64,000 bases of DNA from Amphiura filiformis (Eukaryota > Echinodermata > Ophiuroidea > Amphilepidida > Amphiuridae): contig NC_092640.1 of assembly GCF_039555335.1 (NCBI RefSeq), positions 27,747,446 through 27,811,445 of the forward strand, given 5' to 3'. Under the pieces are notes generated by a model. That model did no database searches and had not been told where the DNA came from. It saw only the letters and a list, made by a program, of their open reading frames with translations. Of this stretch, positions 1,774-13,384 are shown piece after piece; within the stretch, counting starts at the first letter, position 1, and each line of letters starts with the position of its first letter. The position numbers were made by a program, and so were the translations under genes.

Positions 1774-3018
1774 ATGCTGCCGGTGAGGACGATTCACGAT
1801 TGCAAAATGAATTCGTATTCGCGATTCCGTATACAGATTACCAAGCACGGAGTCCCCCACATGTATTAATAACTACACCATCGTCAATTCCAATTTTCAC
1901 CACACTGACCTTGGCTGGCACGATTTATATCGTTAATAACACCGTCACAAAAGACAGTCCTGCTGATATTCGTTTAACAGAGGCTGAAGTAGGTCAGGAC
2001 GTACGTGTTTATCATGGAGACGGAAAGCAAAATAAGACATTGATACTGAAATCATCTGGCAAAGTGTCGGTTTACGCTATAGATAATGAAGCAAATGGAG
2101 ATGGGTTCGCAGTCTTGCCAAAATCTCAACTAGGTACGCAATACTATGTAGCATCATACAAACCTATCTCACCTTTGTATCCGTCATTCTTTTGCATATC
2201 ATCTCTCTACTCCAAAACGTCAATTTACATCAACGCACATGCAGAAAATGAACCCGATGTCATACTAGAAGACGATGAAAGTTATTGTTTTGATGGCAGG
2301 GCTTATGAAGATCTTTCAGGAACTCTTGTACAAAGTGATAAGCCAATTGCCGTGATATCAGCTGTGTGGACACGGGTACCTGAGGGTACATGTTGTTCGT
2401 GTGGCTTAATAGAGCAACTACCACCTGTACATAGCTGGGGGTACAAATTTATTCTGGCTCCATTTCTAAGTTTAAATTCTGGTTATGTGTACAGAATATA
2501 TACTACGAACATTTCTGTCATTCAGCAAAATGGCAACAGTACACGCATCGATGCTGAGTCTTTTTATGAAGTAGATGTAACCGGAGATACTGTTGTGTCA
2601 TTAACATCAGACCATCCTATTATGGTGGTACAGTACATGAAGGGCAACAATGGCTACTATACTGAACCCGGTCAACCATCAATGCTAATCGTCCATCCTA
2701 TCACATCGTTTACTGGAAACGTAACGTTTCCTGTAATTGAGTGCCCATCGACCGATTTCAGACACACATATTACATCAATATGGTCATAAAATGTGAGTT
2801 TGTTCATGGACTTTTCTTGGATGATTCACCTTTGAAGAGAACTAACGATGCTGTACTAAAGAGTCGTGATGAATCCATGTGCTGTTTACGAACAAATTTG
2901 TCTTTTGGACATCACACTGTAGTACATAATAATCCAATGGCAAGATTCTTTGTAAGTGTGTATGCCATATCAAGCGGATCTTCTTACGCATATGCGGCGA
3001 ATGTTTTTGATTCAGCAG
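1774..3018 (+). CDS. Exon: IgGFc_binding domain
   Basis: The acceptor TTTTCTTTAACAG ends at 1773 and the donor GTAAGT starts at 3019. Both ends are phase 1, so the 1245-nt exon is a self-contained 1-1 module. The protein begins AGEDDSRLQNEFVFAIP and carries features of the IgGFc_binding family: the N-terminal EFxFAxP strand, DKPIAVISAVWTRVPEG, a CCSCG cysteine cluster followed by LIEQLPPVHSWG, and SDHPIMVVQYMKG. There are several N-glycosylation sequons. The open frame extends upstream to 1758 only through a TTG inside the splice acceptor, so that apparent start is rejected. Confidence 0.88.
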
Positions 3019-12000: not shown

Positions 12001-13384
12001 GTTATATTAAATGAAATCCTGGCATAAATAAATCGTCTTCATTCAATTGTGCTCTCTCTAAAGCAAGTAGAAATAGCTTGTACACTTAAACATGGGAACA
12101 CGTTTTGACGTATCTATAATTAGTAAAAAGATGTAGCTCAGCGGCCAGCCAACAAAAAGAAAATGTCTATATTAGGCCCTTAGCTGGCCCTATACGTGAA
12201 ACAAGATTTTCTCTCTGAATTGGCCGTATTTTACGTGTAAGAAAATCAATCGCATTATCGTGTTCACTCAAAAATTTAGAAAATAAATGGGTACTTCTGG
12301 GTATCTTTAGATTGTATAGGATTTAAGTATGATATATTTTCGATGGTAAATATATTTCACTTTCAAAGTTTGTAGTTTTCATAATTGCAATTTCTGAATA
12401 TGATATAAAAAGCGGTAATAAGTCTATAAATGTAAGAGTATCGGATCATTTTGAATGTTAATAAATGCGAAACGCCGTCGGTAGACACCAGCAATATCAG
12501 GGATTGCCGCGATTCTTGCAGTAGCTTTTATGAATAGAATACAATAGTGGATACAATAGCGGATACAATAGCGGAACAATAGAGCTCTCTTATGGGCAAA
12601 TAAACCTCGTCGCGTTTTGCTAAATTTCACTTCTTCTTTTTCATGAACTAACCGTTATTTTTTAAACTTGTGGCAAAACATCTACCGATGTTTTTAATGC
12701 GGAACTCGGGAATATTGATTTTGAGATATAGCAAAAGGAAATATTTACTTTTGATTCCTCTTGTTATGGAAACTCAATAATTGCTCATATCTTTGGAACT
12801 AGTTGTTTAATTTCAATGGGATTTTCTGCCAAATCTAGCTTTAAAAATGCTTTTTACTAACATATAAGAAACTGAAAATTTAATATTTCCGAGTTCCGAC
12901 TGATTTTGCTTGATCGCATCACATATAATGAAGTAGCACTGTATATAATAGCAAACCTTATTTTTCCCTCAGGAGCAAACAGAGACGAAATCCATGCAGT
13001 GATGCAGTGGTAATGGGTAGCAATGCAAGAATTGGCAACATCGATCACCGCGCAAATGACGCATACGAACCGCAAATAGCAGCTGGGAATATAAATCATC
13101 AGTATGATCAAATAAACGAGGGACCACAAGAATATGCGTACACGTATGTGGATAGCCAGAACCAAATGACCCGAAACGATAATAGCAGTTACGCGTATGC
13201 GTATGCTGAGACAAATCGAGTACCACGCACATCTAGACCAGCGGCGGAGGTTCAAGAAGAGGAGGAAGGGTGGTTGGATAATAAAGTGTATGTCTCTTCA
13301 GATAATGGTGGGGGTGATATGACACAGGCTGATGAGAACGCACAGGAGGGGTGGATGGATAACTCAATCTACAGTAGCGAATAA
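1774..13384 (+). CDS. IgGFc-binding-domain single-pass receptor (spliced, six exons recognised)
   Basis: I join six exons: 1774-3018, 3802-3876, 4647-4679, 6529-6610, 7081-7111 and 12983-13384. The phases match at every junction (1-1, 1-1, 1-1, 2, 0) and give about 622 residues without the signal peptide. Domain order: an IgGFc_binding-type extracellular domain of about 415 residues, a Ser/Thr/Pro-rich linker, an acidic Gly-rich linker, one transmembrane helix, and a long acidic tyrosine-rich cytoplasmic tail. The IgGFc-binding domain is known from FCGBP and related extracellular proteins; a membrane-anchored form with a tyrosine-rich tail suggests a signalling receptor, which is inference. 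The exact acceptors of the last two exons are judged by phase and splice motifs only. Confidence 0.75.
3802..3876 (+). CDS. Exon: Ser/Thr/Pro-rich linker
   Basis: The acceptor TTTGTAG ends at 3801 and the donor GTAAGT starts at 3877. The 75-nt exon is phase 1 on both sides and encodes a segment containing SPTTSYLSSRPVTTSSI, a likely O-glycosylated stalk between the ectodomain and the membrane. Confidence 0.65.
4474..4503. repeat. Pentanucleotide repeat (TTCAA)n
   Basis: About five to six copies of TTCAA in the intron between the linker exons. Confidence 0.85.
4647..4679 (+). CDS. Exon: short acidic linker
   Basis: The acceptor TCTTTTACAG and the donor GTATAA flank 33 nt in phase 1-1, encoding TDSTDGGDDS. 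It continues the extracellular stalk. The phase match with the exons on both sides is the main support. Confidence 0.6.
5838..5939 (+). pseudogene. tRNA-derived pseudogene (Leu/Ser-like, long variable arm)
   Basis: A D-arm-like block TGGTCGAGCGGTCTAAGGCG at 5848-5867 and a T-loop TTCGAAC at 5915-5921 sit at tRNA-like spacing, with an apparent long variable arm. The seven bases before the D arm (5841-5847) do not pair with CTCTGCC at 5927-5933, and the anticodon loop is enlarged by a small hairpin (ACGTAT/ATACGT). An outer AAGTTC/GAACTT pairing exists at 5838-5843 and 5934-5939. This is more likely a tRNA-derived repeat or dead tRNA than a working gene. Confidence 0.5.
6529..6610 (+). CDS. Exon: transmembrane helix
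   Basis: The acceptor TTTTGCAG ends at 6528 and the donor GTATGA starts at 6611; the phases are 1 in and 2 out. The 82-nt exon encodes a helix of about 23 hydrophobic residues, starting GVIIGGVAGALVLICI and running on through Ile/Leu, ending in the basic stop-transfer HVKR. The GxxxG-like GGVAGA stretch is typical of single-pass receptors. Confidence 0.8.
6648..6686. repeat. Microsatellite (CTGT)n
   Basis: About ten perfect CTGT copies just downstream of the transmembrane exon. Confidence 0.95.
6839..7358. mobile_element. Inverted-repeat element surrounding a receptor exon
   Basis: Arms of about 66 bp, 6839-6904 and 7293-7358, are almost perfect reverse complements (AAAACGTAAAAAGGGGCC against its complement). 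About 390 bp lie between them and include the proposed 7081-7111 exon. It is a foldback or MITE-like structure without coding potential of its own. Confidence 0.75.
7081..7111 (+). CDS. Exon: cytoplasmic juxtamembrane segment
   Basis: Starting after CAG at 7080 in phase 2 and ending before the donor GTGAGT at 7112 in phase 0, it encodes R-ITQDDEEFNK, which continues the basic stop-transfer into an acidic tail. An alternative acceptor six bases upstream (after 7074) would also keep the frame. The polypyrimidine tract is weak; support comes from phase and the strong donor. Confidence 0.5.
7385..7616. repeat. Minisatellite of about 57 bp, four copies
   Basis: Four units share TTCTTTGTAGCC and CAAACTAGTTGGATATCC blocks and end in (T/C)GCGGTTAGTGG-like sequence, with 10-20% divergence between units. 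It lies in the last intron of the receptor gene. Confidence 0.85.
8272..8932. mobile_element. Large foldback element, 660 bp
   Basis: The left arm 8272-8485 is the reverse complement, with scattered mismatches, of the right arm 8722-8932. It begins TATACTGCGCCAATAAAGTA and ends with the complement. The A-rich centre has no recognisable gene. Confidence 0.8.
9076..9632. repeat. Long (TTTC)n microsatellite
   Basis: About 550 bp of TTTC repeat with interruptions (TTTG, TTTT, TTCA); the purest part is 9375-9625. Long open frames in several phases are artefacts of the repeat period. Confidence 0.95.
9957..10405. mobile_element. Non-autonomous DNA transposon of about 450 bp
   Basis: Terminal inverted repeats of about 37 bp (TATACTGCCCTCCCATGACA at 9957 and its complement ending at 10405) include AAAAGGAAGTAATGACCA. 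A third, internal copy of AACAAAAGGAAGCAATGACC is near 10162. No transposase was seen. Confidence 0.75.
10701..10804. repeat. Short tandem repeat GAGAAAGCAGCGCAAGGAG
   Basis: Four copies of the 19-bp motif, the second to fourth separated by spacers of 7 to 10 bp. It lies in intronic sequence that may belong to an old retroelement. Confidence 0.85.
11120..11330. repeat. Degenerate pyrimidine-rich tract
   Basis: Imperfect TTTC/TTCC repeats, a decayed relative of the tract at 9076-9632. Confidence 0.8.
11469..11500 (+). ncRNA. Degenerate hammerhead-like motif (Penelope-type)
   Basis: TTGATAA is followed by a GTAC-TTTT-GTAC hairpin and then GAAACGTCAG. This is the order of a hammerhead core (CTGANGA, stem II, GAAA) with substitutions in the first box. 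GAAACGTCAG is also found in the Penelope-like remnant at 46124-46162. Probably the only recognisable part of an old element. Confidence 0.35.
12535..12583. repeat. Short tandem repeat GGATACAATAGC
   Basis: Three to four imperfect copies of a 12-bp unit within the last intron. Confidence 0.7.
12690..12930. repeat. Dispersed repeat, also at 59365-59640
   Basis: The reverse complement of this segment recurs at 59365-59640: GAGTTCCGACTGATTTTGCT here against its complement near 59380-59400, and both segments share a GATTTTGAGATATAGC-like block. It ends about 50 bp before the last receptor exon. Confidence 0.6.
12983..13384 (+). CDS. Last exon: tyrosine-rich cytoplasmic tail
   Basis: With the acceptor CAAACAG ending at 12982 in phase 0, the exon reads RRNPCSDAVV and runs 133 codons to TAA at 13382. 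The stronger-looking CTCAG acceptor ten bases upstream would need phase 2 and so another exon. The tail is acidic and holds many tyrosines: YDQI at 13103, YTYV at 13139, a YAYAYAE run, and two copies of EGW(L/M)DN(K/S)(V/I)Y near 13264 and 13346. YDQI and YTYV are eight residues apart, an ITAM-like spacing. An AATAAA overlaps the stop codon at 13380-13385. Confidence 0.75.
   Translation, partial: RRNPCSDAVVMGSNARIGNIDHRANDAYEPQIAAGNINHQYDQINEGPQEYAYTYVDSQNQMTRNDNSSYAYAYAETNRVPRTSRPAAEVQEEEEGWLDNKVYVSSDNGGGDMTQADENAQEGWMDNSIYSSE

Follow-up and report, generated by a model that had tools for sequence, protein, structure and literature searches.

The window, by which we mean the whole stretch of 64,000 nt that was analysed, carries on its plus strand a candidate gene at 1774..13384, with TAA as its last codon at 13384. 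The exons are best read as encoding an IgGFc_binding protein in type I membrane form, whose cytoplasmic tail is rich in tyrosine. Downstream of the gene lie two intact TLRs, one frame-broken TLR and one TLR relic; the three TLR loci which a sequence-only reading of this DNA had placed beside the gene are present, one of them with a frame break. LRR and TIR are both found in these neighbours, and Pfam detects neither in the ectodomain exon or the tail of the candidate gene. Adjacency to the TLRs demonstrates no link. What the sequence-only reading had observed of the exons is partly confirmed, its core holding, and its interpretation as an innate recognition receptor is partly supported.

Ectodomain exon and 5' end

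Exon A (1774..3018, plus strand, phase 1 to 1) encodes the ectodomain in 415 codons and gives the near-full PF17517 match expected of an IgGFc_binding ectodomain (E 9.1e-41, 140.5 bits versus a cut-off of 25.6, profile 2-292 of 297). The match lies at about 2103-2942, and ~109 residues precede it outside the Pfam match. Being a whole-domain match above the gathering score, it places exon A in the PF17517 family. It is the sole Pfam match above cut-off in this exon, in which no EGF-like repeats were found; other matches (FlbD, DUF7448, HYR_4C) all remain under their cut-offs. The donor CAG/gtaagt belongs to the top 0.1% of GTs within 1-20 kb and is the strongest donor of the model, and the acceptor is among the top 3.6% of AGs in the same range. 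The codon score of exon A reaches 0.092, compared with a maximum of 0.089 in 4000 non-coding samples of the same length. Searches for a signal-peptide exon in 1-1773 gave weak candidates only (2 in one search, 3 in another), with no convincing signal core. The N-terminus is therefore missing from the model, and the gene start probably lies outside the window.

Splice scores throughout were calculated with generic matrices, which were not trained on this genome. Simulated sequences were first-order Markov, with thresholds set at the observed values; the tail simulation covered 10 kb and the real count 13.4 kb.

Linker and transmembrane exons

Two small plus-strand exons of phase 1-1 form a Ser/Thr/Pro-rich linker: exon B (3802..3876, 25 codons) and exon C (4647..4679, 11 codons). 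Splice scores of exon B rank only in the top 12.5% and 11.9%, and it can be skipped without a change of phase; exon C has an acceptor in the top 1.6% and a donor in the top 9.7%. Phase 1-1 exons numbered 2 in 3019-6528, the simulated mean being 1.25 and at least one occurring in 65% of 20 simulations. Exons B and C are thus not beyond chance by their splice signals. The linker has 37 residues in total, 16 of them Ser/Thr and 5 Pro, and contains no mucin repeat, so that the earlier description as a "mucin-like stalk" was overstated.

Exon D (6529..6610, plus strand, phase 1-2) encodes a single transmembrane helix (about 6531-6602) and the first basic residues behind it. Its hydrophobic segment, the only one, has a mean KD of 3.11 over 19 residues, whereas no segment of the ectodomain exon exceeds 1.32; this agrees with the one helix that had been predicted. 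As comparable candidates we counted exons of phase 1, 60-300 bases long, that contain a KD 2.8 segment and whose splice scores equal or exceed those of exon D. One was present on the plus strand of the window and none on the minus strand, and none appeared in 60 first-order Markov simulations of a 10.4-kb region. The transmembrane exon is beyond chance. A basic stop-transfer sequence follows the helix, HVKRSKQRR in the five-exon model described below or HVKR-ITQDDEEFNK-RR in the six-exon model. Read in their true frames, exons B, C (4647) and D (6529) have codon scores of -0.014, 0.579 and -0.064, which mean little because these exons are too short.

Two gene models for the 3' end

Two sets of exons satisfy the phases. 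The five-exon model (1774-3018, 3802-3876, 4647-4679, 6529-6610, 12973-13384) is phase-compatible and open for 614 residues. The six-exon model adds 7081-7111 and starts the last exon at 12983; it too stays in phase, with 621 open residues. The six phase-compatible exons that had been claimed, the last of them from 12983, therefore do fit, given an exon at 7081-7111 which the sequence-only reading had not named. The motifs of the tail are identical in both models.

A last exon starting at 12983 is out of phase with the donor at 6610 and fits only through an extra exon. None was found at strict thresholds (acceptor 1.0, donor 3.0), and a search with looser thresholds yielded 7081-7111 (plus strand, 31 bases, phase 2 to 0), which in turn requires the start at 12983. 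Since this exon restores the phase, the 12983 start is an alternative and not an error. A weak acceptor (top 13%) and a good donor (top 1.1%) flank 7081-7111. Of 60 simulations, 20% produced a comparable exon, and by splice signals alone 7081-7111 is not beyond chance. Exons of phase 2-to-2 at the loose threshold numbered 1, against a simulated average of 3.55. The acceptor at 12973 scores 3.52 (top 3%) and that at 12983 only 1.18, with two AGs within the 12 bases upstream of the latter. Splicing normally uses upstream AGs first. Given the higher score and these two AGs, we prefer 12973 and favour the five-exon model. In either model the join of exons D and E across the last intron (6.4 kb, repeat-containing) is drawn from phase, and two joins fit.

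Tyrosine motifs of the tail

Exon E (12973..13384, plus strand) runs from phase 2 to the stop TAA and encodes the cytoplasmic tail, which extends for 136 residues beyond the split codon. Ten of these are tyrosines, as the term tyrosine-rich had implied. Its codon score, a measure of TLR-like use, is +0.141, compared with a non-coding mean of -0.049 (SD 0.064, maximum 0.212, 4000 samples). On translation of the plus strand five NxxY motifs appear: NDAY (13055..13066), NHQY overlapping YDQI (13094..13114), NSSY (13181..13192), NKVY within the repeat EGWLDNKVY (13280..13291) and NSIY within the repeat EGWMDNSIY (13361..13372). Hence half of the tail tyrosines (5/10) lie in NxxY, versus a mean of 1.09 after shuffling (P 0.001, 20,000 shuffles, the test having been chosen post hoc). 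Asn is frequent in the tail (15/136).

None of the five motifs has Pro at the second place, as canonical NPxY would. YDQI and YTYV also occur beside the NxxY motifs, and their spacing resembles that of the ITAM consensus, but YTYV ends in V; the tail contains no complete ITAM or ITIM and no YxxL, V replacing L/I in YTYV. As it also gives no TIR match, the immune role that had been proposed is inference at most. Because five of ten tyrosines are in NxxY, beside YDQI and YTYV, the tail motifs suggest uptake through PTB/SH2 adaptors, by analogy with CED-1.

Relatives and known systems

By tblastn with exon A, no paralogous receptor was found in the window, other matches having E 0.37 or worse, and no relatives were confirmed in viral contig and genome contig collections. 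Exon A matched one of 72,556 plasmid records, and the domain of a Bernardetia plasmid protein matched 2. The Bernardetia protein scores 220 bits to PF17517 and shares 22% identity with exon A over 359 positions. It and a Pontibacter plasmid protein carry the same PF17517 domain as exon A; they differ in that the former is an open frame of 1669 aa and the latter is annotated as gliding motility-associated. Sequence searches of the PDB matched neither exon A nor the tail, and Pfam likewise gave no homologue for the tail. NCBIfam matches of the five-exon protein were at chance level (E 0.065 or worse, far under cut-offs), and single-sequence structure prediction gave no reliable model (mean pLDDT 35.5).

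Receptors of the CED-1/Draper/MEGF10 type likewise have a single transmembrane helix and, in the tail, tyrosine motifs of the NxxY and YxxI/V types. Their ectodomain consists of EGF-like repeats and is unrelated to the one described here, and their canonical NPxY and YxxL or ITAM are absent from our tail. CED-1 is described as binding the PTB adaptor CED-6 via NPxY and NCK-1 via YxxL phosphorylated by SRC-1 (PMC9388098). FCGBP begins with an N-terminal IgGFc-binding H domain described as about 450 aa long (PMC9354016), which by this length compares with the 415 codons of exon A. In contrast to FCGBP, no vWD-C8-TIL repeats follow the domain within the window; a linker, a transmembrane helix, a tail and a stop take their place. 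Pfam scans of 12 ORFs (2 + 10), out of the 148 window ORFs of 70 aa or more, gave no vWD match. Among the literature matches listed, titles and abstract openings mention no transmembrane IgGFc-binding receptor, which is no proof of absence in print.

Interpretation

From the observed domain, phases, transmembrane exon and NxxY enrichment we read the gene as encoding a single-pass type I protein, a predicted uptake receptor with the H domain outside and the NxxY tail inside. We put this whole reading forward tentatively, as a little less than an even call. Joined by the predicted splicing and led by a putative signal peptide, the protein would reside at the cell surface, and its outer region in the window would correspond to the FCGBP 'H' domain alone, on a short, possibly O-glycosylated linker. 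In the most likely mechanism, the H domain would first bind a mucus, matrix or microbial ligand. The tail would then recruit PTB adaptors of the CED-6/GULP, Dab or Shc kind, and its phosphorylation by a Src-type kinase may bring in SH2 proteins and clathrin adaptors. Such recruitment would lead the cell to take up the bound particle, in the manner of CED-1/Draper/MEGF10.

The same architecture could serve a membrane-tethered barrier or adhesion protein, whose H domain anchors mucus or matrix and whose tail provides trafficking or cytoskeletal linkage instead of phagocytic signalling. NxxY motifs serve integrin-type adhesion too. Furthermore, FCGBP is described as a mucus component (PMC9354016, PMC10285406), and in a sea star study IgGFc-binding protein belongs to a module linked to adhesion (PMC10320347). 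A tail with ten tyrosines among its 136 residues and with YxxI/V next to NxxY resembles a site of regulated recruitment more than a passive anchor, which is weak evidence, and we consider the barrier or adhesion function possible, if on the unlikely side.

Intron retention or alternative polyadenylation past 3018 might also make the product mainly a secreted protein with a minor membrane form, since the frame of exon A continues for 12 codons beyond the donor to a stop at 3054-3056. Moreover, a review describes the family as best known in secreted form (PMC9354016), in agreement with the sequence-only reading. The strength of the donor at 3018, together with an in-phase transmembrane exon and a coding-like tail downstream, makes this explanation improbable. 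It is slightly less probable still that exon A is real and exons D and E stem from another gene, from chance or from relic sequence. The repeat-filled 6.4 kb between D and E, the two possible joins and a tail without homologue would agree with such an artefact; a transmembrane exon never matched in simulation, an open and coding-like tail, fitting phases and the basic stop-transfer VKRSKQRR, which arises where D meets E in the five-exon model, all speak against it.

Beyond the uptake receptor itself, we consider it rather unlikely that an animal receptor lineage converted the mucus domain of FCGBP for recognition in phagocytosis or endocytosis, coupled it to a multi-NxxY signalling tail and is encoded beside a birth-and-death TLR cluster. 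If true, this would directly link mucus-type recognition with uptake. In the reviews and studies on the family cited here, IgGFc-binding members figure as proteins of mucus or of adhesion. With a membrane form that has a recruiting tail, invertebrates would possess a cell-bound reader of mucus- or microbe-type ligands and a concrete, testable uptake pathway. In the sponge Halichondria panicea, a figure legend on PRR diversity names IgGFc-binding among the "other domains" of putative PRRs (PMC8242945). In a sea cucumber disease study, an IgGFc-binding protein has positive values in the table of differentially expressed genes, where it is grouped under inflammation (PMC4906609).

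Gene structure and ectodomain

The open stretch at 1774-3018 on the + strand (exon A), which is entered and left in phase 1, carries the IgGFc_binding ectodomain proposed in the sequence-only reading, as a Pfam search matched it to PF17517 over profile positions 2-292 of 297 (E 9.1e-41). Its donor, CAG/gtaagt, ranks in the top 0.1% of GTs in the first 20 kb, and its codon-use score, trained on the TLRs of the window, is 0.092 and exceeds the maximum of 4000 non-coding samples (0.089). In length and family, exon A corresponds to the H domain of the vertebrate mucus protein FCGBP alone, since that N-terminal domain comprises ~450 residues according to the excerpt of PMC9354016. 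No convincing candidate for a signal-peptide exon was found in 1-1773, and the gene start therefore probably lies outside the window. Relatives were bacterial only, in collections containing no eukaryote genomes, namely a Bernardetia plasmid protein scoring 220 bits to PF17517 and one from Pontibacter whose annotation is gliding motility-associated. The Bernardetia open frame occupies plasmid positions 2632-6873, where the PLSDB table, known to be incomplete, has no gene.

Two small phase 1-1 exons follow (3802-3876 and 4647-4679). By splice signals they are no better than chance (two found versus a simulation average of 1.25), but both are symmetrical, so that the frame into the transmembrane exon is kept with or without them. 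The linker they encode, 37 residues with 16 Ser/Thr, is too short for the mucin-like stalk suggested earlier. A tRNA-like stretch noticed by eye at 5840-5940, perhaps a SINE head, gave no match with ARAGORN or Rfam.

Transmembrane exon and alternative 3' ends

The exon at 6529-6610 (phase 1-2) encodes a strong hydrophobic helix. A screen requiring phase 1, a length of 60-300 bases, splice scores no lower than its own and a segment of hydropathy (KD) at least 2.8 singled out this exon alone on the + strand of the 64 kb. The - strand contained no such exon, and 60 simulations of the 10.4-kb region produced none either, which puts the transmembrane exon beyond chance expectation. At the 6610 donor, a codon is split after its second base. 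The acceptor at 12973 (score 3.52, top 3%) supplies the third and creates the stop-transfer sequence HVKRSKQRR across the splice junction, and the five joined exons are open for 614 residues up to the TAA at 13384. The six exons read previously use the acceptor at 12983 (score 1.18), which starts on a codon boundary and fits only with an intervening exon going from phase 2 to phase 0. Such an exon is available at 7081-7111, where the donor ranks in the top 1.1% and the acceptor in the top 13%; the six-exon model it yields, in agreement with the earlier count, is in phase and open for 621 residues. However, comparable exons appeared in 20% of 60 simulations, and we therefore prefer the five-exon form. 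The location of 7081-7111 inside a foldback element (6839-7358) also speaks somewhat against it. This element is one of three MITE-like foldbacks in the last intron (also 8272-8929 and 9957-10405; inverted arms 91-100% complementary), which further contains a long TTTC microsatellite (9075-9626); another lies at 16027-16414.

In 6611-20000, three acceptor-to-stop frames are at least 130 codons long, two of these within a TTTC microsatellite; no such frame arose when 10 kb was simulated 60 times. The codon score of the tail is 0.141; 0.9% of non-coding samples reach 0.1, the largest being 0.212.

Cytoplasmic tail and possible function

With 10 tyrosines and 15 asparagines in 136 residues, the tail is indeed tyrosine-rich. 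Asn occupies position -3 for 5 of the 10 tyrosines, where shuffling predicts 1.09 (P 0.001), a test weakened by being framed post hoc, after the tail had been viewed; in the ectodomain, NxxY occurs at 3 of 27. All five motifs fall in the portion common to both models. EGW(L/M)DNxxY is present twice, and YDQI and YTYV stand at ITAM-like spacing, but the latter ends in V. According to PMC9388098, the NPxY of CED-1 binds the PTB adaptor CED-6, and its YxxL, phosphorylated by SRC-1, then binds NCK-1. The tail resembles this motif logic, although the strict motifs are absent.

Our leading, still tentative interpretation is a single-pass receptor with a mucus-protein domain, probably serving uptake. 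Its main rival, a tethered adhesion role, appears rather less likely. Transmembrane exon and tail depend on neither the choice of 12983 nor the linker exons, which leaves the odds of both readings unchanged. In echinoderms, an IgGFc-binding protein appears in a list of genes altered in skin ulceration (PMC4906609) and belongs to the top genes of a cluster discussed under coelomocytes (PMC11244903), the excerpts not stating which architecture is meant.

Neighbouring loci

The TLR loci that had suggested an immune role are present, but adjacency is no proof of immune function for the receptor. Two are intact (20030-23086 and 37275-40415; proteins 81% identical). Between them, 26836-29912 is broken in frame once, at ~28428-28446; compared with both at the DNA level, it shows an identity of 0.66-0.79 in the first 2000 columns of the alignment and of 0.82-0.98 thereafter, a shift such as gene conversion would give. 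A TLR relic at 14490-15225, 1.1-1.8 kb past the receptor stop, combines a forward piece (15000-15217; 78% DNA identity to 20030-23086, and 85% to 37275-40415 over 15000-15153) with weak antisense LRR matches (~14490-14906; E 0.001 or worse). The cluster thus looks to be turning over. Elsewhere, the ORF at 47168-47494 (-) matched GIY-YIG below threshold (20.4 bits versus a cut-off of 22.6; E 6.3e-4) and may derive from a Penelope-like element.
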